From NCBI GenBank assembly GCA_019636095.1, contig JAHBYF010000001.1:248001-312000 (forward strand): a stretch of DNA of 64,000 nucleotides, read 5' to 3'. Origin of the DNA: Hyphomonadaceae bacterium (GTDB lineage: Bacteria; Pseudomonadota; Alphaproteobacteria; Caulobacterales; Aquidulcibacteraceae). Below are positions 402 through 15,074 of this stretch, piece after piece. A program made the translations under genes and the position numbers. Below the pieces are notes generated by a model. It was not told the origin of the DNA. It searched no databases and saw only the letters and a program-made list of their open reading frames with translations. Within the stretch, counting starts at the first letter, position 1; each line of letters starts with the position of its first letter.

Positions 402-1124
402 ATGCTTAGACGATGGAAATCCTTGACCCTAAGTACGGCTCTCGCCGCGCTGGTTCTAGCGGCGCCCGCGCCGGCGGGCGCGCAACGGATCGTCTATGAT
501 CCGACCAATTACGCGCAAAACCTCTTGTCAGCCACACGCGCGCTCGAACAGATCCGCAATCAGATTCGCCAGATCGAGCAGGCGACGGCGATGCTGCGGC
601 AAAATCCGTTGCAGCTCTCGCCGGAATTGTCGCAATCGATCCAAGAGGCGCGCGCACTGTTTCAAACCGCGCAAGGCATCGCCTTCGATATCGATAGCCT
701 GAGCGAGGATCTGCGCACGCTCTATCCCGAAACCTGGGAGGCGTTCGATCTCGACCAAATTCTGGGCCAATCCGATCAATGGATGGCAGAGAGCCGGGCC
801 AGCCTCGAGCGCGCCATGCAAGCTGAAGCGCGCGCGGCGGCTTCGATTGAGCGCGCGCAGGGCCATATCGATCGGGCGCTGCAATCTTCGGCGGGAAGCG
901 AAGGCCAAACCGGCGCCATTCAGGCCGGCAATCAATTGCTGGGCGTCAGCGCCGCGCAACTCACTGAGATTCACGCGCTGCTGATCGCCCAAGGCCGCGC
1001 GCTGGAAACCGAGCGCATGGAGCGCCTGGCGCGCGAAGAGCGAGCGCGCGAAATCCAGCGCCGCGCCTTCCCAGCCCAATCGAGCGCGGCCACCGCGCCG
1101 GCGCGCTCCGCGTTCGAGGATTGA
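402..1124 (+). CDS. trbJ: P-type conjugative transfer protein TrbJ
   Basis: This 240-residue protein has an N-terminal signal peptide (hydrophobic residues about 10-24, ending PAGAQ) followed by a mostly helical, Gln/Glu/Arg-rich body. TrbJ is the VirB5-like periplasmic or pilus-associated component of Trb mating systems. The motif YDPTNYAQN soon after the signal peptide is typical of the family. It lies between trbE and trbL, as is usual in alphaproteobacterial integrative elements. TrbK, an entry-exclusion lipoprotein often found next, is not present. Confidence 0.85.
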   Translation: MLRRWKSLTLSTALAALVLAAPAPAGAQRIVYDPTNYAQNLLSATRALEQIRNQIRQIEQATAMLRQNPLQLSPELSQSIQEARALFQTAQGIAFDIDSLSEDLRTLYPETWEAFDLDQILGQSDQWMAESRASLERAMQAEARAAASIERAQGHIDRALQSSAGSEGQTGAIQAGNQLLGVSAAQLTEIHALLIAQGRALETERMERLAREERAREIQRRAFPAQSSAATAPARSAFED

Positions 1125-1128
1125 GGCG

Positions 1129-2172
1129 ATGGAAGGCGCCGCCATCAATTCGTTCCTGGATCAATTTCTGGCCGTCGCCAATTCCGGCTTCGGTTTGATC
1201 CAAGGCGATGTGAATTACGTGCTGAATGCGTTGATCGCGATTTCGATCACCTTGGCCGGCGTGCAATGGGCATTGGCGGGCGAAGCGCCAATGGCGCCGT
1301 TTTTTCGCAAAGTGCTGTTTGTCGGCTTGTTCGCCTTCCTGGTGAACAATTGGGCGAGCCTCTCAACCGTCATCGTGCGCTCCGGCGCACAACTTGGTCT
1401 CAACGCCGGCGGCGGCGCCATGAGCATGGCCGATCTGCACAATCCAGGACGCGTCGGCCAGATCGGCGTTGAACTGTTTGGCCGCACTATCGCGCTCGCC
1501 GAGGGCATGAACATTTTCACCGACGCCATTCCCATGGCGCTCATCTTCATCGCCGCTCTGTTTGTGGCGCTGGGCTTTTTCGTGCTGGCGCTGCAGCTCT
1601 TCGTTTCTCTGATCGCCTTCAAGCTCGGCAGCCTGGCGGCGTTCGTGGCTTTGCCCTGGGGCGTGTTCAACGGCACCGCGTGGGTGGCCGAACGTCCGCT
1701 CGGATGGGTCGCCGGCTGCGCCATCCGGCTCTTCGTGTTGGCGCTGGTCGCGTCGGTCTCGGTCACCTTCGTCAATACGCTGCCGGCGACGCTCTCGCTC
1801 GACGCGGGCGGTGCGCTCAACGTGCTCCTGTTCGGACTAACCGTGCTGGCGCTGGCTTGGTTCGGTCCTCAGCTCGCCAGCGAAGTGGTGTCGGGCCAGC
1901 CGCATCTCGCTGGCAATGACGCCTATCGCGCCGGCGTCGGCGGCGCGGTCACCGCCGTCGCCGGCGGCGCTGCGGCCTATTACGCGACCAAAACCATGGT
2001 CGGCGCGGCGCGCGCGCTTGGCGGCGGGGCGGCGCGCATGGTCGGCGGCTCGCGTCCGCGTGGGTCGGGCGGCGGCTCTGGCGGCGGCAATGGCGGCCGC
2101 GCTGTCGATTATTCTGCGATGCAGCCGCGTCCGGCGCCGCCGTCCAAAGCTTCAAGTGGGGGCAATCCATGA
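1129..2172 (+). CDS. trbL: P-type conjugative transfer protein TrbL
   Basis: A 347-residue polytopic inner-membrane protein (VirB6-like) that would form part of the mating-pore translocation channel. Several hydrophobic segments lie between about residues 25 and 245, followed by a Gly/Ala-rich C-terminal tail with runs such as GSGGGSGGGNGG, common in TrbL. The start follows trbJ by 4 bases and the stop overlaps trbF by 4 bases (ATGA), so translation is probably coupled. Confidence 0.88.
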   Translation: MEGAAINSFLDQFLAVANSGFGLIQGDVNYVLNALIAISITLAGVQWALAGEAPMAPFFRKVLFVGLFAFLVNNWASLSTVIVRSGAQLGLNAGGGAMSMADLHNPGRVGQIGVELFGRTIALAEGMNIFTDAIPMALIFIAALFVALGFFVLALQLFVSLIAFKLGSLAAFVALPWGVFNGTAWVAERPLGWVAGCAIRLFVLALVASVSVTFVNTLPATLSLDAGGALNVLLFGLTVLALAWFGPQLASEVVSGQPHLAGNDAYRAGVGGAVTAVAGGAAAYYATKTMVGAARALGGGAARMVGGSRPRGSGGGSGGGNGGRAVDYSAMQPRPAPPSKASSGGNP

Positions 2173-2852
2173 ACTTTCCTTTCCGAAGTCCAGCGCAGAA
2201 TTTCGCGCCGCAACCTGCCGACACGCCCTACCGGCGCGCCCAGCAAGAATGGGACGCACGCATGGGGTCGGCGGTGCTGTCGGCGCGGTCGTGGCGCACA
2301 ATTGCGTTTGCAAGCCTGGGCCTGGCCGCGCTGCTCGGCGCTTCAGCCATCATGATCGCGATGCAGCAACGCACCTTTGTGCACATCGTCGAAGTCAGCC
2401 CCGAAGGGCAGGTGATGAATGTGCGCGCCGCCGACGGCCGCTGGAGCCCGAGCCAAGCGCAGATCGCCTATCATCTAGGCCGCTTTGTTCGTTTGGTGCG
2501 TTCTTTGCCAACCGACGGCGTGGTGCTGCGCGAGAATTGGCTCGAAGCCTACAAGTTCTTGACCCCGCAAGCTGCCGCGCAACTCTCCGAGATCGCGCGT
2601 CAGGACGATCCCTTCTTGTCGCTGGGCCGGGTCGGGCGTGTGGTGCATATCCGCTCGATTATCGCCCGCTCCGACAATGCCTGGGAAGTGAGCTGGGTCG
2701 AGCGCGCCACCAACGCCACCGGCACAAGCGACGGCGAGCTTTACACTGGCGTCTTCACCGTCACCACAAGGGCGCCGCGCACCGCCGATCAGATCGCCAG
2801 CAACCCGCTGGGCTTGCTCATCTCCGACTTCAGCTGGAGCCGCGAACGATGA
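2169..2852 (+). CDS. trbF: Conjugal transfer protein TrbF
   Basis: A 227-residue bitopic inner-membrane protein of the VirB8 type. It has a short cytoplasmic N-terminus, one transmembrane helix at about residues 42-60, and a periplasmic VirB8-like domain. YRRAQQEWDARMG before the membrane helix is characteristic of TrbF. VirB8-type proteins scaffold the assembly of the secretion apparatus. It overlaps trbL and trbG by 4 bases each. Confidence 0.88.
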   Translation: MNFPFRSPAQNFAPQPADTPYRRAQQEWDARMGSAVLSARSWRTIAFASLGLAALLGASAIMIAMQQRTFVHIVEVSPEGQVMNVRAADGRWSPSQAQIAYHLGRFVRLVRSLPTDGVVLRENWLEAYKFLTPQAAAQLSEIARQDDPFLSLGRVGRVVHIRSIIARSDNAWEVSWVERATNATGTSDGELYTGVFTVTTRAPRTADQIASNPLGLLISDFSWSRER

Positions 2853-3751
2853 AAAGTCTTCTTCTCTTAGCTGTAGCGTCGATGGCGCTCGCCGCCTGCG
2901 TAACCACGGAGATCGCGCCTGTCGCCGAAGGCGACGGCCTCGAGCAGGCTGCGGACTTGCGCGGCGCACTTCCGATCGTGGAAGCTCCGGCGCCGGTAGA
3001 ACCGCAGCGGCAGGTTCGGCGTGGCCGTGAGCGTCCGCCGCTTGAAACCCTAGCCGAGGCGAACACCGCTGCGCGCCAACGTCCGACCAGAGACGGCTTT
3101 GACGCCGCGCGCCAGACCTTCGCTTACGTGCCCGGCGCGCTCTACGAGCTTTACACCAACCCCAATTACGTCTCGACCATTCTGCTCGAACCCGGCGAAA
3201 CATTGAGCAACATCGCCGCCGGCGACACTTCGCGCTGGATGGTGACTCAGGCGGAAGCCGAGTCAGACTTTGGCGGACGCACCATCGTGCTGGTGAAGCC
3301 GCAAACAACGGGTCTGCGCACCAATATCGTGCTCATCACCGATCGGCGCACCTATTTGATCGAAGCGATCTCGCAAGCGGGCAACGCGTATGCGGCCCAA
3401 GTGGCCTGGTCCTATCCCGGTGGGCAGGCGCAAAGCACTGGCATTCCTGGCATCGACCGGCTTAATTTCGGCTACCGCGTCCGCACCGTGCGCGGGCGAG
3501 CGCCGGTCTGGACGCCAACACGTGTGTTCGACGATGGCCGCCGCACCTGGATCGAGTTTGCCGCCGATGTCGCCGCCGCCGACATGCCGCCAGTGTTCGT
3601 CATCACCGGCGAAGGCGCTGAGCTCGTAAATTTCCGCGTGCAGGGCCAGCGTTACATGCTCGACCGCGTGTTCGAGCGCGCCGAGCTGCGGCTCGGCGCG
3701 CGCGCTCCCACCATCGTCCGCATCGATCGCGACATCGGAGGCCGGCGATGA
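2849..3751 (+). CDS. trbG: P-type conjugative transfer protein TrbG (outer-membrane lipoprotein)
   Basis: This 300-residue protein begins with a lipoprotein signal (lipobox LAAC, Cys at about residue 17) and has a VirB9-like body in which YVPGALYELYTNPNYVSTI is the recognisable TrbG/VirB9 signature. VirB9 proteins form the outer-membrane core complex with the VirB10-like TrbI. The ATG at 2849 was chosen because it overlaps the trbF stop and gives the lipobox; the reading frame is open further upstream but that stretch is a shadow of trbL/trbF. Confidence 0.88.
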   Translation: MKSLLLLAVASMALAACVTTEIAPVAEGDGLEQAADLRGALPIVEAPAPVEPQRQVRRGRERPPLETLAEANTAARQRPTRDGFDAARQTFAYVPGALYELYTNPNYVSTILLEPGETLSNIAAGDTSRWMVTQAEAESDFGGRTIVLVKPQTTGLRTNIVLITDRRTYLIEAISQAGNAYAAQVAWSYPGGQAQSTGIPGIDRLNFGYRVRTVRGRAPVWTPTRVFDDGRRTWIEFAADVAAADMPPVFVITGEGAELVNFRVQGQRYMLDRVFERAELRLGARAPTIVRIDRDIGGRR

Positions 3752-4806
3752 CGATTGCGCCAACCCAAGAGCCCGACATCGCGATCCGGTCGCGTCCGCC
3801 CTCGCCCAAGCGCTTATCCCGTAAAGTGCTGCTGGCCGGTACCGCGGGCGCTGGCGCCATCGTCGTGTTTGCGCTGTTGAGCGGCTTGTCGGAGCGGCCT
3901 GACCGGCGCGGCGACGCCGCCCAGACCGCCGTCGCCGCGGCGGGCGGGCCGCCGGAATCGATCGAGCGCGCGTCTGCACAATACGATGTCGCCGATTTGC
4001 CGCGCGCTGAGCTTGACGCGTTTACCTCGCCGCTTGCGGCAGAGGATGAATTATTGCCGCCGCAAGACGAGATCTGGGCTAACCAGGCCCCGCTTGGCGC
4101 GCGGCAAGCGGCGGAGGCCCCCGCGCCGCCAGATCCACAATTGATCGCGCGTGCTTCGCCGATCCTGTTCGGCGCTGGGGCCAGCAACGCGGGCGACGCC
4201 GACGCCAGCGGACAATTGGAAACGCGCCTCACGCCGCCACGTTCGCCGTTCACGCTGCAGGCCGGTCAGGTCATTCCCGCCGCTTTGGTCACGGCGTTGA
4301 ACTCCGACGCGCCCGGACGCGTCATCGCTCAGGTCACCGCGCCGGTGTACGACAGCGTCACCGGCGATCATCTGCTGGTCCCGCAGGGCGCGCGTCTGAT
4401 CGGGACTTACAGCAATGGCGTGCGCTATGGCGACAATCGCATTGTGCTCGCCTGGAACCGTCTGATCCTGCCGAACGGCTGGTCGATTGATCTCCAGCAC
4501 ATGGAAGCGACTGACGCCTCCGGCGCTTCAGGCTTGCGCGATCGAACCGACAATCATTTGGACCGGCTCGCCGCGGCAGTCGTGCTCTCCTCGATCATCA
4601 GCGTCGGCGCCAACGAAGCCGAGAGCGATGATGAGGACGGGTTCGGTCAAAGCCTGGGCGACGCCGCCGCTCAACAAGCCGCCCAGTCCGGCGCGCGCAT
4701 TGTCGATCGCGAACTTAGCGTTCGGCCAACGCTCAATGTCAGGGCGGGAGCGCCGGTGCGGGTGCTTGTCACGCGTGATATCGTCTTGCGGCGGTTTCGG
4801 CCATGA
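3748..4806 (+). CDS. trbI: Conjugal transfer protein TrbI (VirB10-like)
   Basis: A 352-residue VirB10 homologue. It has a cytoplasmic N-terminus, one membrane helix at about residues 27-47, a Pro/Ala-rich periplasmic linker, and a C-terminal beta-rich domain with FTLQAGQVIPAALVTALNSD and LLVPQGARLIGTYS, both typical of TrbI/VirB10. It bridges the inner-membrane ATPases and the outer-membrane TrbG ring. It overlaps trbG and the next gene by 4 bases each. Confidence 0.9.
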   Translation: MTIAPTQEPDIAIRSRPPSPKRLSRKVLLAGTAGAGAIVVFALLSGLSERPDRRGDAAQTAVAAAGGPPESIERASAQYDVADLPRAELDAFTSPLAAEDELLPPQDEIWANQAPLGARQAAEAPAPPDPQLIARASPILFGAGASNAGDADASGQLETRLTPPRSPFTLQAGQVIPAALVTALNSDAPGRVIAQVTAPVYDSVTGDHLLVPQGARLIGTYSNGVRYGDNRIVLAWNRLILPNGWSIDLQHMEATDASGASGLRDRTDNHLDRLAAAVVLSSIISVGANEAESDDEDGFGQSLGDAAAQQAAQSGARIVDRELSVRPTLNVRAGAPVRVLVTRDIVLRRFRP

Positions 4807-5186
4807 AGCGCAAGCCTCACGCCAAGAATGGGCGCGATCAAGCGCGCGCCCAGCCGGACCTTTTCTCCACACTGGGCGCCGCGCCTCGGCACGCCATAGC
4901 GGTTGGGGCGGACACGGGCGCACAGCTGCCAACCCCGGCGAACCAATCCAAGCCGGCGCGAACGCCGAAACCAGCGCCTTTGGTCGCTCGGCCTCCAAAC
5001 GGATTGTTGCGCGTGCGCGAAGCGGCAGCGCGCCTCGGCTTGTCGAAATCCACTTTGGACAAGATGCGCTGCGAGGGCCGTGGACCCCGTTACGTGAAGA
5101 TCACGAGCAAGCTTGTGGGATATGACCCCATTGATCTTGACGCCTATGCAGAAGGGCGAAAGCGGCAATCGACTTCGGAACGTTGA
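4803..5186 (+). CDS. Helix-turn-helix DNA-binding protein at the end of the trb operon
   Basis: A 127-residue protein whose first 65 residues are disordered-looking and basic, and whose last 60 form an AlpA/excisionase-like winged helix (LLRVREAAARLGLSKSTLDK, then GPRYVKI). It overlaps trbI by 4 bases, so it is probably made with the conjugation proteins. Such proteins can be excisionases or regulators of transfer genes; the specific role here is inferred. The next gene is convergent. Confidence 0.65.
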   Translation: MKRKPHAKNGRDQARAQPDLFSTLGAAPRHAIAVGADTGAQLPTPANQSKPARTPKPAPLVARPPNGLLRVREAAARLGLSKSTLDKMRCEGRGPRYVKITSKLVGYDPIDLDAYAEGRKRQSTSER

Positions 5187-5384: not shown

Positions 5385-7019
5385 TCATTCCTGCACAGCA
5401 TGTCCTAGTCTTGCGGCATAGCGTTTGAGCGCCACGCGATCCTCAGGCAGCAGAGAGAAGTAGCCGGTGGGATAGGCGTCGTCGTAGCTCTTGCTCACAC
5501 GGCGATCATCGATTTGCGAGATCAGCAGGCCGAGAGCTGGGTTGAAGCGGCGTATGGACCAGCCAGTCTTGTCGTGTAGCGCCTTGGCTGAAACGCCATT
5601 TCCGATCTGCAAGGCAAAGCCAGCCAGCAACGCGGAATCACCGCTTGGATCTGTGCCCACCGCAACGGGATCGAAAGTCGCGAATAGATCAAGCGTGACG
5701 GATATTCGCGGCAGACCGGCATCCATTGTGCGCGTGAGCGTCACGAAGCCATCGGTGGCCAATTCTGCGAGCGCTTCATCGAGATCGCCTCGCGGCACAT
5801 CTTGGAACGCCTGCGCCACCGCATCAGATTTTATCGGTCCCGCGCGCCCATTCTCGATGTTTTCTGCGATCCACACAGCCAATCGGGTAGCGACCGCGCC
5901 GAGGCCCAGGTGAGCAAGAGCATTAGGTTCAAATGGAAGTGACATGCGCGCATTTCCGATCTCGGGCGCCGAAGCGTCCGCTTGAGGAGCAGCAACGCCG
6001 GCTGCAAGAAACGCATCGAGCCGATCGACAACGGCCTGGCAAAGACCTGCGAAGATGCGGACGTCGTCACCCACCAGGCGAACGGTTTCCCCGACCCGCG
6101 CATCTTGCGCGTGCTCGGCGAACCTTGCGTCGACGACACCGAGATTGTGTCCGATAATATGACGCTTCTGTACATTGAGCTTCAGCGCCTCGAGCGCCTC
6201 GTCTTCAAGTTTTTCGAAAGGGTCAAAGCCCAGCTCGACATAACGCGCCTTGGCGCGCTCTACGTTTTGGAAGTCGTTGAGGACGGGCTTGAACGCAGGC
6301 GAACCTGCCGGCCGCTGCGCCATGCCATAATAATAGACGGTCTTCAGAGTGGTCTCGAACGCGGTCAAGACATCTTCGTGCGCGTTGCCGATCAGCCTAT
6401 ACGCAAGCTCATGCTGCTCGTCAGGCAATTCGTCAGCGAGCGATATTTGCGCGGCGACCAGCTCGGCCTCACGTTGAAAATGAAGGCGTAGATTGGGCGC
6501 TCCACAATCCGGGCAAAAAAGAGCGATCGCGAACACGCCGTAGTCGCGGCCACAATGATCGCAGACCAGTTCTCGCATCAAATCCCGGCGGGCAAAGCGA
6601 GGCCGCGGGGCGGACGCGGAGCGAGTCTTTTCCACTGTGAACATGCTGCCGGGCTTATTGGCGATGTCGTCAAACATCTTTCCGAACGCCGCGCGCGCGT
6701 CTTCGAGCATCGCGTGCTTGACCGTGGCCAGCGCTGCGTCCCGATCCTCAGGATGCGTAAACGCGTCATCGTCCGCCACGACGCCGCTATAAGGGCAGAC
6801 GGTCTGATTTGATCGAGGCGCATGTTTCATGCGGGCGCGTGCCTCGGACCCGATCTCTACGTCTACGGCGTCGCCGAGAACGAAATGGCGCGGATGGGCC
6901 TCTTTGTTTGGCGAATAACGGTAGACGCGCCCGTCAGGCGTGCGTGGCAGCGGCACGGCGAGTTGCATCTGTTTGGCCGTGCCGCCGACGCGGAAACGAT
7001 TGAGGTTTTTGAACTGCAT
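5385..7019 (-). CDS. Unrecognised CBASS-adjacent protein with zinc ribbon and HEPN-like Rx4H motif
   Basis: I do not recognise this 544-residue protein as a named family. A four-Cys zinc ribbon is visible (CDHC at 153-156, CPDC at 169-172). A helical region at about 205-340 follows, containing KRHIIGHNLGVVD (R286, H291). That has the Rx4H spacing and the surrounding pattern of HEPN ribonuclease domains. A C-terminal part (about 365-544) resembles winged-helix segments. It lies 111 bases downstream of the SAVED effector gene, on the same strand, as the last gene of the CBASS cluster. A weak hairpin at 7103-7119 lies in the gap, so co-transcription is uncertain. Possible roles are an accessory toxin, an RNA-targeting effector or an unrelated cargo gene; all of these are inference. 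Confidence 0.55.
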   Translation of the reverse strand: MQFKNLNRFRVGGTAKQMQLAVPLPRTPDGRVYRYSPNKEAHPRHFVLGDAVDVEIGSEARARMKHAPRSNQTVCPYSGVVADDDAFTHPEDRDAALATVKHAMLEDARAAFGKMFDDIANKPGSMFTVEKTRSASAPRPRFARRDLMRELVCDHCGRDYGVFAIALFCPDCGAPNLRLHFQREAELVAAQISLADELPDEQHELAYRLIGNAHEDVLTAFETTLKTVYYYGMAQRPAGSPAFKPVLNDFQNVERAKARYVELGFDPFEKLEDEALEALKLNVQKRHIIGHNLGVVDARFAEHAQDARVGETVRLVGDDVRIFAGLCQAVVDRLDAFLAAGVAAPQADASAPEIGNARMSLPFEPNALAHLGLGAVATRLAVWIAENIENGRAGPIKSDAVAQAFQDVPRGDLDEALAELATDGFVTLTRTMDAGLPRISVTLDLFATFDPVAVGTDPSGDSALLAGFALQIGNGVSAKALHDKTGWSIRRFNPALGLLISQIDDRRVSKSYDDAYPTGYFSLLPEDRVALKRYAARLGHAVQE

Positions 7020-7130: not shown

Positions 7131-8654
7131 TCAGCTAGATAATGGAAGCGTGAGGGAAGGCGTATACGAACCCGTGCGCCCGTTCCCGAAATCGAATTCG
7201 TAGAGCGTGAGCTTCCCGAGAACAGGCTGCCGCTGACCAAGGAAAAATGTGAAAGCATTGGGCGCGGCGATGAACACGTGGATCGCAGGGCGCTGGCCTG
7301 CTGACGAGGTCGCGCAGATTTGGGCCGATGTCGCTTCGGCGAGATCGAACGCGTGACGTCCCCCGGCCACCGCTAGTGTGCTGGGCCCGGTGCTAGGCTG
7401 GCAGACAAGGATCCGGCCCACGTTCGGAAGCGCGCGCTCGACGAACGCGCGAACGTCGGCAGCGATGTCATGCGTTAGACCGATGGCGACGGCGATGTCG
7501 GGTTTGCCGTTGGCGAGGTCGACGACATTGAAGGCGGCGCGGGGCCACGCAGGATCAGGGTCGGCATCATCTGCGGACCAGACACGGCGCGCTATCGTGC
7601 GTTGCTCCAGGTCGATCTTGCGGCCGGTCTTAATGTTCAGGATTGAGCCGGCGGCGAAGGCGAGGCTCGCGTGGGTATCCAGCGCGAGCCGCAACGGGTC
7701 TGCCGCCGCGACCGTGTCGATGAGGAAATGCTTCATTGCGGGATAGAGCTTCGAAGCCCAGTCCGCGTCGTTGCGAATGAAACGCTCATCGAAGTCCGGC
7801 GTAAAATCGAGCACGCCCACACATCGATCCTCCAGTCGGTCGATGGGATGCTCGAACGACTTCACGCCATAGGTGACGGGGTGGGGAGCAGAGGTTGCGA
7901 GCAGTCCTTCGCGTGCGCAAGCCTCGCGCATGCTCACGCGGTCGAACTCCAATCGCCCCTGCGCCATCCACTGATAGATCACGTCATCATAGACGAACGC
8001 ACTTTCCCGCGCCGGAATGCGCCTTAGCCCCACAAAGCCGAACAAATGATCCAGACGCTCACGCAGATCGTCGAGCGAGTCCGGGGCCTCTGCAAAAGCC
8101 AACGTGCGCGCAAGCAGGCGTAACGTCTCGTCGTCGCCGCCAAGATGCTCGCGCCAGGCTTGGCGAAGCGCGCCGATCTTGCTGTTGTCGGTCGTGGACG
8201 TGAACATGCGGTCGAGACGGATTGCGCTCGACCGCGATCCAATGATCGCCCGCAGCGGATCGGCGCGGTCAATTCTCCAATTGGTGAGAAGCTTGAAGCG
8301 CACGCCGTCACCCGCCGGCGCGTGCGTCACCTGCGCCGCGTGCGCGCGCTGCAGGAGTGAGCGCGCGTTCGCATTGATGAACTCGGGATCGGCAACATCG
8401 AGATAGCCGTAGGTGCTCGGCGAGACATGCCATTTGCATTGGACGTGTTCACGCCGAAGCGGTCGGCCCTCTTGGTCACGGGGGCTTCGGCTTGCGTCGT
8501 AGTCGACCCAGATGTCGTCGAAGGCCTTTGGTCCGGTTTCGAACCCTACCTTGATAATGGGGCTGTCTGAATCCAGCAGGCACGCGGCACGCAGCCAGAA
8601 CAAGCGCGCTTGAAACGTGTCTCCGTCACGGCGGCTGGTGATGGCCTGGGTCAC
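7131..8654 (-). CDS. CBASS effector: nuclease-like N-terminus fused to SAVED domain (Cap4-type)
   Basis: A 507-residue protein. The C-terminus carries the SAVED signature (VFIAAPNAFTFFLGQ, then LYEFDF), which binds cyclic oligonucleotides. The N-terminal about 150 residues contain a PD-(D/E)XK-like pattern: E39, D46-D47 and Q72-x-K74 in VQCKWH, as in DUF4297/Cap4 endonucleases. By family knowledge, a nucleotide signal made by the CD-NTase would activate DNA cleavage by such a protein. The start is GTG, overlapping the ATPase stop by 4 bases (GTGA). Exact nuclease subclass is uncertain because the N-terminal domain is divergent. Confidence 0.8.
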   Translation of the reverse strand: MTQAITSRRDGDTFQARLFWLRAACLLDSDSPIIKVGFETGPKAFDDIWVDYDASRSPRDQEGRPLRREHVQCKWHVSPSTYGYLDVADPEFINANARSLLQRAHAAQVTHAPAGDGVRFKLLTNWRIDRADPLRAIIGSRSSAIRLDRMFTSTTDNSKIGALRQAWREHLGGDDETLRLLARTLAFAEAPDSLDDLRERLDHLFGFVGLRRIPARESAFVYDDVIYQWMAQGRLEFDRVSMREACAREGLLATSAPHPVTYGVKSFEHPIDRLEDRCVGVLDFTPDFDERFIRNDADWASKLYPAMKHFLIDTVAAADPLRLALDTHASLAFAAGSILNIKTGRKIDLEQRTIARRVWSADDADPDPAWPRAAFNVVDLANGKPDIAVAIGLTHDIAADVRAFVERALPNVGRILVCQPSTGPSTLAVAGGRHAFDLAEATSAQICATSSAGQRPAIHVFIAAPNAFTFFLGQRQPVLGKLTLYEFDFGNGRTGSYTPSLTLPLSS

Positions 8655-9610
8655 CGCTGGATACGCTCGCCTGGCCTACCGTCTTGGAAGGGCGGCGTCG
8701 GCGCCATGGTCTTGGCGATATGCAGCGCCGTAGCCGGGTCGGCGGCTGCGCCGGGATAAGCAGCCAGCACAATCGCAGGCACAAGGCGCTGGGTTAAGTC
8801 AGAGAACGTGAACCCGAACTCGTGAGCGCCGGTCTTGGCGCCGGTGGCCGCGACCAGAGCGTCGATATTCGCGCGCGAGAACCCCAGCGGCTGAAGGCAA
8901 TCGGTCAGCACCTGACGGCGTTGTTCGTCATTGGGACGACTGAAGCTCAAAACCTCCGCCGCGCGGCGGCGAACAGCGGGATCAAGCGCGCTCAGACGAT
9001 TGGTGCACATGATCACCGCCGCAGGCAGGCGCGCACTGGCGAGCCGATCGACGCCCCGGATGAAGGCGTTGACCCCGGCGCGATCCTCGTGGTGCATTTG
9101 CGCAGCTTCGCGTGATTGAGCGAGCGCGTCGGCTTCATCGACCAGCAGGATGACGGCGCCGCGTGCGCGTCCCGATGCCGATTTCAGCTTTGTTGCCTCA
9201 GCTGCCGTGTAATCGAACGCAGCGCTCAGCAATTGCGTCATCTCGCCGACACGACCCTGGCCGCGCGTCGCAAGACTGAGAGGCAGAAGCGTGATTTCAA
9301 TTCCTTCTTGACGTGCGACGGCGTCGCCGACGGTTTCGGCGAGTTCCGTTTTGCCCGAACCGACATCGCCAGCCAACACGACAAGGGGAGGACGCCGCAG
9401 CACAATGTCGAGCAGCTTCTGCGCGCCGGGATGATGTCTTTTTGCCCATGCTTCCAAGCCTGCGGGATTGACCAACAAGCCCAGCATTTTGGTGAGGCGC
9501 TGCTTGTGATCGTCAAGTCCAACCAGGCGGGCAAACCGTGCCTGCGGTTCGAAGTCGGGATAGCTGATGCGACGCTCGAAGAGTTCGTCGGCTGAAGGCT
9601 TGGTATTCAT
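8651..9610 (-). CDS. cap6: TRIP13-like AAA+ ATPase of type III CBASS (Cap6)
   Basis: A 319-residue AAA+ ATPase with a Walker A at residues 81-88 (GDVGSGKT), Walker B around 154-161 (ILLVDEAD), and sensor/arginine-finger region CTNRLSALDPAVRRR. In type III CBASS the TRIP13-like ATPase remodels the HORMA protein and so switches off CD-NTase activation. The ATG at 9610 overlaps the HORMA stop by one base (TGATG), and a TTG one codon upstream is an alternative. Position directly after the HORMA gene identifies it. Confidence 0.87.
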   Translation of the reverse strand: MNTKPSADELFERRISYPDFEPQARFARLVGLDDHKQRLTKMLGLLVNPAGLEAWAKRHHPGAQKLLDIVLRRPPLVVLAGDVGSGKTELAETVGDAVARQEGIEITLLPLSLATRGQGRVGEMTQLLSAAFDYTAAEATKLKSASGRARGAVILLVDEADALAQSREAAQMHHEDRAGVNAFIRGVDRLASARLPAAVIMCTNRLSALDPAVRRRAAEVLSFSRPNDEQRRQVLTDCLQPLGFSRANIDALVAATGAKTGAHEFGFTFSDLTQRLVPAIVLAAYPGAAADPATALHIAKTMAPTPPFQDGRPGERIQR

Positions 9611-10125
9611 CAATAGCTCCTGACGCTAGCGCGGTTGAGGGCGCGCCCGCCCGCCGAATAGGTGCGATCCTGTTCCAGATACCCGCTCACGGTTGGCTCC
9701 GGCGCGCCGCCGCGTGCGAACGGCAACGTCTGCTTAAAGCCCACTTGTTGCGCGCTGCTGAGTTTGTCCCAGGCGGATGAATAGGTGAGGTAGCTGTAGA
9801 ACGACGCGTTGGTGATGTCCGCACCAGGGCGCACCCGGCCGGGGTCATCATCATCGGCGCTGCCGCCGGCCAAGTCTTTTGCGCTATACTGCAGCGCCGG
9901 CTCGATCCATTTGCTGTCACGCCAGAAGCCGTAGGTGACGGTGCGCAAATAGCCCTCCTTCAAGAGTGCGATCAGCTCGGCCTCGTAGCTCGCGATACTG
10001 GCGTCGCTGGGCGCACCATAGAAACGCTGCATGCGCTTCAGGTCTGTCGCGACCTTCGCCGCAATGTGCTTGGCGTGCGTCAGCGTGAAGGTGACGGTCT
10101 CGTCGAATGTGTAGGTGTAGGACAT
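9610..10125 (-). CDS. cap7: Bacterial HORMA-domain protein of type III CBASS (Cap7)
   Basis: A 171-residue protein starting MSYTYTFDE. It contains THAKHIAAKVATDLKRMQRFYG and GYLRTVTYGFW, which I recognise as the bacterial HORMA-1 family. HORMA proteins sense a peptide ligand, adopt a closed state and activate the partner CD-NTase. The C-terminal 20-30 residues would be the seat-belt or closure region. I chose ATG 10125 over an in-frame TTG at 10137 because family members begin at this point; the gene follows the CD-NTase stop by 8 bases. Confidence 0.85.
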   Translation of the reverse strand: MSYTYTFDETVTFTLTHAKHIAAKVATDLKRMQRFYGAPSDASIASYEAELIALLKEGYLRTVTYGFWRDSKWIEPALQYSAKDLAGGSADDDDPGRVRPGADITNASFYSYLTYSSAWDKLSSAQQVGFKQTLPFARGGAPEPTVSGYLEQDRTYSAGGRALNRASVRSY

Positions 10126-10133
10126 GGGCAAGC

Positions 10134-11099
10134 TCAAACTTGGAAGGAGGGGCCGAAAACGCGGCGCCAGTAATGAAGGGTTTCTTGCTTGGTCGGGGCC
10201 GCGAGCGCGGCGTCGATGGCGTCGCCGGCATCAAGCGCGGCATCAACAATCAGCTTCGCGTTGGCCGTGGTGTAGAGGCGCGCGACATTGTTCTTCTCGT
10301 TGACCGGGTCGATGATTTGCACCGGCTCGGAAAAGGCGCCGATCTTCGAAGCGGGATAATAATCGGCGAAAGCGATACGTTCCCGCAGCCCGCTGCGGGC
10401 GATATAAGTGAAGAAGTGCTGCAGCGCCTCGGGATAATAGGAGAAATCCAGGCCCTGATCGCTCAGCTTTGACAAGATCATCTCGATCATGAAAGATTTG
10501 AAGCGAAAGCCGTCGTGCTCGGCCTTCATGATGCGCGCCCAGAACTTCACCAGCCGCACCACTTGGGCGAAGTGCGCCTCCTGGGCCTTCTTGCGCTTCG
10601 CGGTGAACTCAAGGTGACGCGGGATGCACGTCCTCAAAAACGAGCCGTCGTCTTGGCTGACCAGATTGCCATACCAATCGGGATCGCCGTCATAGAGGAT
10701 CGGCACGACATCGACGTCGAGGCCAGTGCCGCGGAATGAGACAGTGACGCTGTAGGTTTGCGGCTGAACTTGGTCGGGGGAGAAATTCGGATAGGCCTTA
10801 CGCAGCCGCTCGGCCAAATAGTTGAGCAAATCCGAAACCTGATGCGGCGCGTCGGCGCCGCTAATGTAGCAGGCGATATCGATGTCGTTGAGCGAGCGCA
10901 GCGCCGTGCCCTTGGCCAAGCTGCCGGACAACAGCATCTTCCGCAGCGAAAAATCGTCGTGTTCGGCGAGATAGCCGTCGAGCTTCTCGCGCAACCGGCG
11001 CGCCTGCGCCCGGTACTCGTCCGCCTTGTCTTTGGGGAGGTTTACTTTTTCGGTTGCGAAACGAAGGATATCGTTGTGATCGACGTGCTGGCGCGACAT
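10134..11099 (-). CDS. CBASS oligonucleotide cyclase (CD-NTase)
   Basis: A 321-residue nucleotidyltransferase. It shows the GS motif (GSLAKGT, residues 59-65), the two metal-binding aspartates in NDIDIA (72-74) and a third acidic strand in GLDVDVVPIL. The C-terminal part is an OAS/CCA-adding-type helical domain, with FSEPVQIIDPVN before it. Such enzymes make the cyclic di- or trinucleotide alarm of CBASS. Pairing with HORMA and TRIP13 genes fits the CdnC or CdnD clades, but the clade and product cannot be read from sequence by eye. The ATG at 11099 is preceded by GAAGAGGG and excludes a 59-codon upstream extension that runs into the promoter region. Confidence 0.88.
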   Translation of the reverse strand: MSRQHVDHNDILRFATEKVNLPKDKADEYRAQARRLREKLDGYLAEHDDFSLRKMLLSGSLAKGTALRSLNDIDIACYISGADAPHQVSDLLNYLAERLRKAYPNFSPDQVQPQTYSVTVSFRGTGLDVDVVPILYDGDPDWYGNLVSQDDGSFLRTCIPRHLEFTAKRKKAQEAHFAQVVRLVKFWARIMKAEHDGFRFKSFMIEMILSKLSDQGLDFSYYPEALQHFFTYIARSGLRERIAFADYYPASKIGAFSEPVQIIDPVNEKNNVARLYTTANAKLIVDAALDAGDAIDAALAAPTKQETLHYWRRVFGPSFQV

Positions 11100-11182
11100 G
11101 CGGCCCTCTTCAGAATTTTGGGGTCGCCTGAACGGTGAAACCCCGGCCCATGTAGGTAAGCTCGCGGCGGCCGTCAGCGCGG

Positions 11183-11218
11183 ACAGGCGGATAAAAAGAA
11201 TCTCTGTTGTCCGCCTGT
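11183..11218. promoter_or_regulatory. Perfect 9-bp inverted repeat in the CBASS / sigma-gene divergent promoter region
   Basis: ACAGGCGGA at 11183-11191 is matched by its exact reverse complement TCCGCCTGT at 11210-11218, with an 18-base A/T-richer spacer. It sits 35 bases before the GTG of the sigma-like gene and about 84 bases before the CD-NTase start. A TATAGA hexamer at 11234-11239 could be a -10 for the rightward gene. This arrangement fits a shared operator that controls both directions; the binding protein is not known. Confidence 0.6.
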
Positions 11219-11253
11219 GGGCGATTGGCGAGCTATAGAAGCTAGAGATCATT

Positions 11254-11805
11254 GTGCAGACGCAGGCCGCCCCCACGTCCGAAGATCGCGCCGGAGCACT
11301 GACCGCGCTTGGGCGTGACCGCGAAAAGCGATTGGCGGCGTACGCCAGGATGTGCAGCCGTGGGCTTTCCGATGACGGCGAGGATTTGCTGCAAACCGCC
11401 TACCGGCGCTGGCTGACGGCCAAGAACCCCGTCGTCGGCCCGGAGGAAACCTACAATTACCTGATGGGGGCGATAAAGGGGCAGCGCTTCAACGCGTTGC
11501 GCCATGCCGGCGTGGTGAAGGAAGCGATCGGTGAGCGCCTCGAACCCGGTCCCGAAAAAGAAGATGATCCCGTCGACGATCTGAGGGCTCGGGATTCATC
11601 GGCGGAGGACGCCGTCCTCGTGCAGCAGCTTTACGACAGCGCCGCCGACGATCCCGAACTGCAGCTCTTAATCATCTATTTCGCACAAGAGACGCCGCGC
11701 GCTGAAATCCAGCAAGAGCAGGGCTGGGATGATCAGAAATATGAGGCGGTCAGAAAACGTAGAATACGCGCCGCCGCGAAACTGCTGCGCGAAGGAAGGG
11801 TGTGA
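11254..11805 (+). CDS. Sigma-70-like (ECF-type) regulatory protein divergent from CBASS
   Basis: A 183-residue protein with features of a divergent extracytoplasmic-function sigma factor: an N-terminal helical region (about 15-90, with GEDLLQTAYRRWL resembling region 2) and a C-terminal region (about 125-183) ending in a region-4-like segment, EAVRKRRIRAAAKLL. It starts with GTG and overlaps the next gene by 4 bases (ATGA). It is divergent from CBASS and next to a shared inverted repeat, so it may direct transcription of that cluster. That link is inference. Confidence 0.55.
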   Translation: MQTQAAPTSEDRAGALTALGRDREKRLAAYARMCSRGLSDDGEDLLQTAYRRWLTAKNPVVGPEETYNYLMGAIKGQRFNALRHAGVVKEAIGERLEPGPEKEDDPVDDLRARDSSAEDAVLVQQLYDSAADDPELQLLIIYFAQETPRAEIQQEQGWDDQKYEAVRKRRIRAAAKLLREGRV

Positions 11806-12236
11806 TGCCGCAACAACCGCAATCGCCATCTCTCGCGGACGCGCTGTTGGCAGAGATTGCTGACGAACTCAGCGTGCTTGAGGGAGATGCCCTTGATGCA
11901 TTCCTCGTGGAGATCGGGGAGGATCCCGATCGCTTGCTTGCGCACAGCGCTGCAGCAAAGACTGCGGCGCTCGCTGCACAAGGTCAGGATCGGCTCAGAG
12001 ACGCTCGGGCGCGGGTCAAAGCGCGCCGCGCGCAAAACACGACAACCATTGTGTCGTTCGACATCGCCAAGAAGCGAGCCCTATTGGAGGCGATCAGAAT
12101 TCGAGGCGAGCAAACGGGTGACATGACCCTAGCCGCGCGTAATCGGACAATCGACTCCGAGGAAGATCTGGATAGTGTCCTCGAGGCGTTCTTGCGGCTC
12201 GGGATCATCGACGAGCAAGGAGAAATCAAAAACTGA
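11802..12236 (+). CDS. Unknown 144-aa protein between a sigma-like gene and a metallopeptidase
   Basis: I do not recognise the family. The protein is acidic in its N-terminal half (LADALLAEIADELSVLEGDA), with FLVEIGEDPDRLL in the middle and a basic helical stretch rich in Ala/Arg at about 65-80. No signal peptide or membrane segment is visible. It overlaps the sigma-like gene by 4 bases and is followed by the ImmA-type peptidase after 1 base. By analogy with repressor/peptidase pairs it could be an anti-sigma factor or the peptidase substrate. That is a hypothesis. Confidence 0.5.
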   Translation: MMPQQPQSPSLADALLAEIADELSVLEGDALDAFLVEIGEDPDRLLAHSAAAKTAALAAQGQDRLRDARARVKARRAQNTTTIVSFDIAKKRALLEAIRIRGEQTGDMTLAARNRTIDSEEDLDSVLEAFLRLGIIDEQGEIKN

Positions 12237-12237
12237 G

Positions 12238-13002
12238 ATGCGTCCTGCTGAAGCCTTGCTTGTCGAACTCGGCATCTCTGATCCCAAGGACATAGATGTC
12301 GATGCGATCGCAGATTATGTAGATGCCGAAGTCGACTATCGCGATCTAGCGGGTTGCGAAGCGCAGATTATCGGCTATCGCGATCGTGCCGTTATCTATG
12401 TGCGCAAGAGCGCTCCTTACCAGCGCCGGCGTTTCAGCACAGCCCACGAGTTGGGCCACTGGCATCACCATCGCGGTCAGTCCTTTGTTTGCCGGCCCGA
12501 GGACATTGGTCGGCCAATTGATGAGGCGTCTCGGAATGTCGAACGCGTCGCTGACGCGTACGCGGCGGATCTGGTGTTGCCGCCCTTCATGATCGAGCCG
12601 CGGCTCGCGTCGCTCGGGAAGGTTTCGCTAGACGGAATTGTCGAGATCGCCCGACAATTCTCGACCAGCGTGACAGCGACCGCCATCCGCGTCATGCGGA
12701 TGACCAAGGAGCCCGTGATCTTGGTCGCCCACAATATGTTCGGGAAGCGCTGGCAATGGCCGGGTGTTACGGCAGGAGGGCTCTCTGTTCGCAGCGACAT
12801 CGATTCACGGTCTAGCGCCTTCTTTGCGATGAGCGGCATCGGCAAGTTGGGTCCGCCGAAGAAGGAGCCTGCGGGGTTTTGGTTTGATCGCCGTCACATC
12901 GACCAATTCGATGTGCAGGTGCAGAACATGCGAACGGCTGAAGGAGAGGTCATTTCGTTTGTGCGCATCTTCGATGCAAAACTCATCGAGATCTACGGCT
13001 AA
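12238..13002 (+). CDS. ImmA/IrrE family metallopeptidase
   Basis: A 254-residue protein with the zinc-peptidase motif HELGHWHHH at about residues 69-77 and a downstream ADAYAADLVLPPFM segment that provides the third ligand region, as in ImmA/IrrE and COG2856 peptidases. These enzymes cleave repressors after stress. In some CBASS loci a related peptidase (CapP) cleaves the repressor CapH on DNA damage. The ATG at 12238 gives a 1-base gap to the preceding gene and is preferred over an upstream in-frame ATG within it. The C-terminal half (about 150-254) is typical of stand-alone ImmA proteins. Confidence 0.85.
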   Translation: MRPAEALLVELGISDPKDIDVDAIADYVDAEVDYRDLAGCEAQIIGYRDRAVIYVRKSAPYQRRRFSTAHELGHWHHHRGQSFVCRPEDIGRPIDEASRNVERVADAYAADLVLPPFMIEPRLASLGKVSLDGIVEIARQFSTSVTATAIRVMRMTKEPVILVAHNMFGKRWQWPGVTAGGLSVRSDIDSRSSAFFAMSGIGKLGPPKKEPAGFWFDRRHIDQFDVQVQNMRTAEGEVISFVRIFDAKLIEIYG

Positions 13003-13746: not shown

Positions 13747-15074
13747 ATGGAGCTGGAGCGAAGGGATCGCATTGTTCAGCCGCGATCGCGCGCCAACCAT
13801 TTGCGGGAGGAGCGCGCGGACAAGGCAAAGCCGTTCGAGATTCCGAAACGGGAAGTCTGGGAGGCCTTCAAGAAAGTGAGGGCCAATCAGGAGCGGCCGG
13901 AGTTGATGGACAAACGATCGAAGCGTTTGAGGCTGATCTTGCAAGCAGCCTCTACAAACTTTGGAATCGGATGTCCTCAGGCAGCTACCATCCAGCGCCG
14001 GTTCGTCGGGTGATGATCCCGAAGGCCGGCGGCGGCAAACGACCGTTGGGCATCCCAACAGTCGCAGACCGGGTTGCACAAGAAGTCGTAAAGCAGCGCC
14101 TAGAGCGCGTCGTTGAACCGATCTTCCACGACGATTCCTACGGGTATCGTCCAGGTCGCTCAGCCATCGACGCCATTCGCCAAGCGCGTCAGCGGTGCTG
14201 GCGCAGCGATTGGGTGCTGGACATCGACATCAAAAGCTTCTTCGACACGATCGATTGGACCTTGCTGCTCAAGGCGGTGCGTGCCCACACGGACTGTCCT
14301 TGGACGCTGCTCTACATCGAGCGTTGGCTGAAGACGCCTGTGCAGCTTGAAGATGGCAGCGTCGTCGCGCGAGAAACGGGCACGCCGCAGGGAGGCGTCA
14401 TCAGCCCTCTGCTGGCAAACCTGTTTCTTCACTATGCGTTCGACACATGGATGGCGCGGGCTTTCCCGCACATTAAGTTCGAGCGCTACGCTGACGACAT
14501 CATCTGTCACTGCCGAAGCGAGGCGGAGGCGCGGGCCTTGTGGCGCGCGCTCGACGCGCGCTTCTCGGTGTGCAAACTTACGCTACATCCGCAGAAGACC
14601 AAGATCGTCTACTGCAACGATTGGAACCGCAGGGGAGACTATCCTGTCATCAGCTTCGATTTCCTCGGCTACAATTTCAGGCCGCGTAAATCGATCTGGC
14701 AAGGGAGGCTCCATGTGCATTCCTTTCTGCCGGCGATCAGCCCGAAAGCTGTGAAAGCGGTTGGGCGGGCGATCCGCGGGTGGCGGCTGCACCACTGGAC
14801 GCAGATGAGCCTCGAAGATCTCGCCGCGCGCTACAACGCGTACATCCGCGGCTGGATTGGATATTTCGGTCACTTCTATGGGGGACGTTTGTCGCAGGTG
14901 CTGCGGCGCATCGACGTCTACCTGATCCGTTGGGCCCGGCGGAAGTACCGTCGGCTCCTGCGTCGTCCGCGCGGCGCGCGCTATTGGCTGGCGCAAGTGC
15001 GCCGGGCCGATCCCACGCTCTTCGCGCATTGGCGTTTCGTGGCTGAAGGCGGCCGAACATCGGGAGCCGTGTGA
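13747..15074 (+). pseudogene. ltrA: Group II intron reverse transcriptase/maturase, frameshifted
   Basis: Two overlapping frames together encode one LtrA-type protein of about 442 residues. The first frame (from 13747) reads through KREVWEAFKKVRANQ and then loses similarity. The next frame takes over with AAGVDGQTIEAFEADLA and continues through PKAGGGKRPLGIPTV, the catalytic YADD box (FERYADDIICHC) and the maturase/thumb region to 15074. Inserting one G near 13890 restores NQGAAGVDG, so a single-base deletion, or a sequencing error, explains the break. The GC-rich C-terminal part looks intact. Splicing could be supplied in trans. Confidence 0.8.

Follow-up and report, generated by a model that had tools for sequence, protein, structure and literature searches.

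A predicted HEPN protein with a PDC-M14A-type zinc-ribbon module and predicted winged helices, encoded next to a type III CBASS cluster in a Hyphomonadaceae bacterium

Comparable described systems and architecture of the gene

According to the abstract of PMC3710099, most domains of the HEPN superfamily are ribonucleases (RNases), and the same source proposes that such RNases stay inhibited until infection releases them. One of the families it describes, EC042_2821, fuses HEPN to winged helix-turn-helix (wHTH), restriction endonuclease (REase) and zinc-ribbon (ZnR) domains. Another described system is PDC-M14, a PADLOC candidate composed of PDC-M14A and PDC-M14B; passages of PMC11811056 attribute PDC systems to Payne et al. 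2021 as unpublished candidates, and the name PDC-M14 was not found in the open-licence literature searched, which does not in itself prove its absence from print. Here we analyzed a gene for a 544-amino-acid protein (the focal protein) in a 64,000-nucleotide stretch (the window; positions 248,001 to 312,000 of contig JAHBYF010000001.1, assembly GCA_019636095.1) from a Hyphomonadaceae bacterium. As the earlier note on this DNA had stated, the open reading frame (ORF) directly follows, on the same strand, a complete set of type III CBASS (cyclic oligonucleotide-based antiphage signaling system) genes. The focal protein is most likely the product of a defense gene in its own right, which shares the cargo region of an integrative element with CBASS. 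Its parts are the following.

5385..7019, minus strand: focal gene, 544 amino acids; PDC-M14A-type zinc-ribbon module, predicted HEPN domain and predicted tandem winged-helix module
6495..7019, minus strand: N-module, residues 1-175, relative of PDC-M14A (PADLOC, alignment, Cys/Ser co-variation)
6492..6575, minus strand: second zinc ribbon, residues 149-176, C153-C156...C169-C172 (four Cys kept in 220/220 listed homologues)
6000..6491, minus strand: predicted HEPN domain, residues 177-340
6147..6164, minus strand: HEPN catalytic-type motif R286-H287-x3-H291 (invariant in 220/220 listed homologues and in 39/39 rows of the N-half alignment)
5400..5927, minus strand: C-terminal module (C-module), residues 365-540, predicted tandem winged helix

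Residues 1-175 are homologous to PDC-M14A, and what sets the focal protein apart from PDC-M14 is the fusion of this module to HEPN and winged helices. With HEPN ribonuclease effectors such as MNT-HEPN toxins and Csm6 it has the predicted fold and the RHxxxH motif in common, but no nucleotidyltransferase antitoxin or CARF sensor was recognized in it; in their place it has a zinc-ribbon module at the N-terminus and winged helices at the C-terminus. EC042_2821 can be likened to it by its description in PMC3710099: wHTH is N-terminal in some members of that family, whereas it is C-terminal here, and EC042_2821 has an REase domain, whereas no Pfam REase match was found in the focal protein or in 37 aligned family members. 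With respect to type III CBASS, the focal gene adjoins such a cluster in the window but is seldom linked to one elsewhere. The focal protein was not described in the titles and abstract openings of open-licence literature on HEPN with zinc ribbon, winged helix, TIR or SIR2, nor in those on type III CBASS with HORMA or HEPN, which is no proof of its absence from print.

Conservation of the family and relatives of its modules

No Pfam or NCBIfam model reached its cut-off on the focal protein, and its sole PADLOC match at E<=0.1 was to PDC-M14A (6e-7, residues 71-174). The same model matched, at E<=0.1, all 37 of the aligned members (best 5.4e-11), none of which had a match at the Pfam cut-off, and a Phaeobacter relative (L065) at 1e-16. 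A protein search with the focal protein returned 573 homologues at E<=1e-3 among 7995 candidates scored, and a second search, using a 13-row profile of the N-terminal half (N-half), returned 782 among the best-sharing candidates. Conservation was assessed on the 220 HEPN-bearing proteins among the matches listed, both searches combined, to which the term listed homologues refers throughout. C153, C156, C169, C172, R286, H287, G290, H291, N292 and D297 are each present in 220/220 of these, as are E204, N212, H214, E215 and D216. Across 39 N-half rows, with identity down to about 19%, 13 columns are left invariant (C75, P76, C153, C156, C169, P170, C172, F250, Q251, R286, H287, H291 and D297). 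The four-cysteine ribbon and the Rx4H motif (KRHIIGHNLGVVD at residues 285-297, with R286 and H291) had both been claimed by the earlier note and are confirmed here; their invariance among the listed homologues argues that neither arose by chance, and the HEPN-type motif is one of the best-conserved features that the family has.

Two AlphaFold2 models (predicted local distance difference test, pLDDT, of 85.7 and 87.4) place a helical bundle at residues 177-340. The best solved-structure matches of this region are mostly HEPN toxins and Csm6, and HEPN chains account for 19 of the top 24, 11 of them titled HEPN in their structure records and eight taken by us to be HEPN proteins. The R286-H287-x3-H291 arrangement fits the Rx4-6H definition of the HEPN motif. 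Modeling and motif invariance therefore support a HEPN fold for residues 177-340, a reading already advanced in the earlier note. That note had recognized neither the C-terminal winged-helix module (residues 365-540) nor the status of residues 1-175 as a separate module.

The first zinc ribbon of the N-module is degenerate in the focal protein, with S36, A41, C75 and S78 where four cysteines are expected. Among the listed homologues, positions 36, 41 and 78 co-vary: they are all Cys in 34 of the 94 short forms (<420 amino acids), and Ser/Ala/Ser in the remaining 60 short forms and in 124/124 full-length proteins (>=500 amino acids), two proteins of intermediate length being left out of this tally, while C75 is never altered. 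This joint change argues that the module is a double zinc ribbon, the first ribbon of which has decayed in the full-length branch; the ribbon is predicted to bind zinc. A comparison of the N-half profile with the sequences of solved structures yielded three matches, all of them weak (E 0.056-1.2) and located in the ribbon region. The N-module also occurs as a gene of its own, 132-155 amino acids long, and the R[HND]xxxH motif is absent from the eight stand-alone copies checked. In 7/7 actinobacterial plasmid records found, such a gene lies beside one annotated 'nucleotide-binding protein', which is immediately downstream in the five records read, the other two being known from overlapping annotation. 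The partner has a CAP12/Pycsar TIR domain in both cases scanned, and three others align at 46-57% identity. In Lysinibacillus, PDC-M14A proper (1.3e-52) is followed by PDC-M14B (3.7e-91), and in two haloarchaea a stand-alone N-module comes after a 334-amino-acid gene with a partial PDC-S05 match.

PDC-M14B was also considered as the identity of the TIR partner and rejected: its model PDLC04448 was not found in the plasmid records L083, L084 and L065 or in G117, and none of six M14B models (PDLC04448 being one) was listed in a protein scan of the TIR genes of L083 and L084. Likewise, the matches listed for the five proteins of the window that were scanned include no PDC-M14B (for the CD-NTase, among the best 25 of 32 families).

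The C-module is predicted to be a tandem winged helix, and in structure comparison its model matches MarR-type folds. In plasmids L007, L070 and L071, from Sphingomonas and Sphingobium, a stand-alone relative of about 172 amino acids (40-43% identity, E 3e-23 to 7e-27) lies directly 5' of a TIR gene; L007, L070 and three further records, 90-99% identical, look like a single lineage, and L071 (76%) represents a second. Relatives that are more remote lie after a SIR2 gene in L067 (E 3e-11; Pfam SIR2_2 7.5e-10) and a GajA gene with a UvrD-type helicase gene in L077 (E 4e-4). For the other plasmid relatives of the C-module (Agrobacterium, Mesorhizobium, Planctomycetes), no TIR-, SIR2- or Gabija-type neighbor was recognized. 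When 66 C-modules were placed on a tree (HEPN-fused aligned members, 30 of 37; stand-alone ones listed, 30 of 120; plasmid relatives, six), the HEPN-fused modules formed one branch (support 100/99, the bootstrap not being fully settled), so that the fusion need have arisen only once. Separately, a plasmid of Sinorhizobium chiapasense (L072, 1257-4411) carries a row of genes (TIR, caspase-family, TIR, TIR) whose final member matches the C-module weakly (E 1e-3).

The MarR-type folds matched by the C-module would also suit a regulator whose winged helices bind DNA of the island and whose HEPN domain merely dimerises, and PMC3710099 does describe HEPN families that lack a conserved motif. The strict conservation of R286, H287 and H291 would, however, be unusual in a non-catalytic domain, and no conserved neighbor was seen that could offer a promoter target; a regulatory role therefore appears rather improbable. 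Relatives of the end modules occur as separate genes beside other immune effectors, recurrently TIR or SIR2 genes, which suggests that HEPN fills the effector slot in the focal protein. This apparent swapping of effectors is the main argument for the defense reading.

Linkage to CBASS and the wider gene neighborhood

The earlier note had proposed the focal protein as an accessory of the adjoining CBASS, that is, an RNA-directed arm beside the DNA-cutting SAVED effector. The CBASS genes of the window, judged to lie outside the system of the focal gene, are these.

7131..8654, minus strand: CBASS effector, endonuclease-SAVED fusion (Pfam, PADLOC, NCBIfam)
8651..9613, minus strand: CBASS TRIP13-like AAA ATPase (Pfam, PADLOC)
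9610..10137, minus strand: CBASS HORMA protein, bacHORMA_1 (Pfam, PADLOC)
10134..11276, minus strand, likely start near 11099: CBASS CD-NTase (Pfam, PADLOC, NCBIfam)

The matches are strong for the CD-NTase (NCBIfam CBASS_cyclase_a, 1.2e-126), the HORMA protein (Pfam bacHORMA_1, 7.2e-60), the TRIP13 ATPase (PADLOC, 1.1e-134) and the effector (PADLOC, 9.1e-204; SAVED_PDDEXK, 4.7e-182). The true start of the CD-NTase is probably near 11099 and not at 11276, because its best family matches begin at residues 62-71. The focal gene is the next same-strand gene, starting 111 bp after the SAVED stop; a terminator-like stem after SAVED (7120-7102) and promoter-like sites were no more than shuffled sequences give.

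This adjacency favors the accessory reading. Linkage was evaluated in both directions. The neighborhood set comprised 49 loci from a scan of genome contigs, with flanks of up to 10 kb that are shorter at contig ends. Relatives of the four CBASS proteins of the window, as detected by tblastn at E<=1e-4, a search that other CBASS types would escape, lie within 10 kb at only 4/49 loci (L022, L027, L035 and L052). L027 and L035, which look like one Bradyrhizobium island, do combine a focal relative with a close CBASS relative (cyclase 79% identical), but in L027 the homologue lies 4.1 kb before the cyclase. L022 has the most window-like arrangement, with the homologue 1.8 kb downstream on the same strand and two opposite-strand ORFs between, and in L052 the homologue and the CBASS cluster are divergently oriented, separated by one gene. 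At none of the four loci does the homologue come immediately after the effector; at least one other gene always intervenes. Conversely, the 27 plasmid records with SAVED relatives do not overlap with the 14 in which any portion of the focal protein has a relative (the HEPN part in five of these), and the focal protein is absent genome-wide from 3/3 other genomes, of 385, with SAVED relatives. No known Cap effector or nucleotide-sensing domain was recognized in the focal protein by PADLOC, Pfam or NCBIfam. The homologues are thus mostly not beside CBASS genes, a result that the earlier note had itself named as refuting its proposal; the neighborhood rules against an accessory role in both directions, and we regard such a role as very improbable. 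Closer to the results is the alternative that the earlier note had offered, cargo of the integrative element, except that 'unrelated' undersells what looks like a defense gene of its own.

Apart from the focal relatives, L022 (4081-8194, Oricola) and L052 (4647-8705, Thermoflexaceae) have in common a CBASS-like cluster with cyclase and TRIP13 relatives, in which a gene of 163-176 amino acids occupies the HORMA position and two genes of 388 and 184-185 amino acids follow the ATPase. In the window, a plus-strand group at 11254-13002, divergent from CBASS, contains a small sigma-factor-like ORF (by eye, without a Pfam match), a 144-amino-acid ORF and an IrrE/ImmA-type peptidase (PF06114, 3e-10), a layout that we take to be reminiscent of the CapH-CapP regulators of CBASS; farther beyond the cluster lies a plus-strand group II intron reverse transcriptase/maturase (13971-15074; RVT_1 1.4e-44, GIIM 2.2e-15). 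On the other side of the focal gene from CBASS, conjugation genes matching TrbL, VirB8, CagX and TrbI occupy 402-4803 (plus strand), and the plus-strand region 402-5186 also takes in a helix-turn-helix/AlpA-like gene, whose matches are weak and fall just short of the cut-offs; its end is 198 bp from the focal stop.

The conjugation genes beside the focal gene, and the presence of some relatives on plasmids, would fit a toxin of the integrative element that serves its maintenance or acts against rival elements and not against phage. Such a toxin is unlikely, since at 19/29 full-length loci no same-strand ORF of >=150 amino acids lies within 100 bp on either side as a close antitoxin candidate (smaller ones were not looked for), and defense genes of several kinds are found among the neighbors. 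Neighbor ORFs were longest-ORF calls, among which false ORFs are possible; a codon-model gene caller missed the focal gene at a considerable share of the loci and was set aside. Twenty neighbor proteins, the nearest ORFs on both sides of 10 of the 29 full-length loci, were hand-picked before scanning, and eight had PADLOC matches at E<=1e-5, 12 having none. ThsB, AbiEi, JetA, SoFic and QatD were matched strongly, and MkoA (3e-43), DUF4238-Pers and pVip partially. The neighbors thus represent a mixed defense setting and not a measured enrichment.

A close same-strand neighbor is present at the other 10/29 full-length loci, and HEPN forms without the C-module (about 330-375 amino acids) directly adjoin AbiH (L006 by annotation; L034, Pfam 3.1e-70), PifA (L079, 6.9e-258) or a PLD protein gene (L080, 1.4e-17). 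These observations could indicate a multi-gene system whose partner varies by locus (AbiH, PifA or an OLD/UvrD pair). For the same form in Phaeobacter (L065), Miltoncostaea (L081) and Emticicia (L082), no partner was recognized, and no single conserved partner gene was found across the loci examined. Even the commonest neighbor family within 10 kb (cluster c1) occurs at only eight loci (L005, L006, L033, L034, L039, L044, L047 and L048; a WYL gene by annotation in L006), six of which are short forms, and a multi-gene system hence seems very unlikely. Near full-length homologues we also observed a two-gene ATPase and helicase-like pair (clusters c7 and c14; L005 12324-16384, L013 11702-15759, and L032), which by eye is OLD-type plus UvrD-like and Gabija-like. 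A phage origin was considered and rejected: 50,697 phage records contained no match at E<=0.01, and a relative was encoded by 0/204 pattern matches in viral contigs.

Proposed mechanism and meaning for the family

We consider it fairly probable that the PDC-M14A-type module, the predicted HEPN RNase domain with its invariant RHxxxH and the predicted winged helices make up a self-contained abortive-infection gene. In the proposed mechanism, the end modules would hold HEPN in an autoinhibited state, and one or both of them would sense infection and free the HEPN domain, which may then cut RNA through R286/H291 as a dimer. Once released, this latent ribonuclease would arrest the infected cell, and the focal gene could thereby protect against phage. 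The RNase and release proposals of PMC3710099, taken from its abstract and associated text, are the basis for envisaging such a latent, infection-arresting ribonuclease. A wider reading, which we put forward only tentatively, is that of modular immune receptors: the PDC-M14A double ribbon would be a portable sensor for at least four effectors, namely HEPN in cis and a CAP12-type TIR, PDC-M14B and the PDC-S05-like protein in trans. In the focal protein it would be combined with the tandem winged helix as another portable sensor, one that elsewhere may control TIR, SIR2 and Gabija effectors, giving a two-input, single-gene RNase defense.

HEPN effectors are well known, yet the focal family, although widespread, is nameless in the libraries searched. 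It connects PDC-M14, an unpublished candidate, with CAP12-type TIR genes and with the winged-helix genes that accompany TIR and SIR2. Should the end modules be the sensors, the attached effector may decide whether a shared sensor leads to RNA cleavage or to some other toxic output, and a mechanism would be at hand for the PDC-M14 family.
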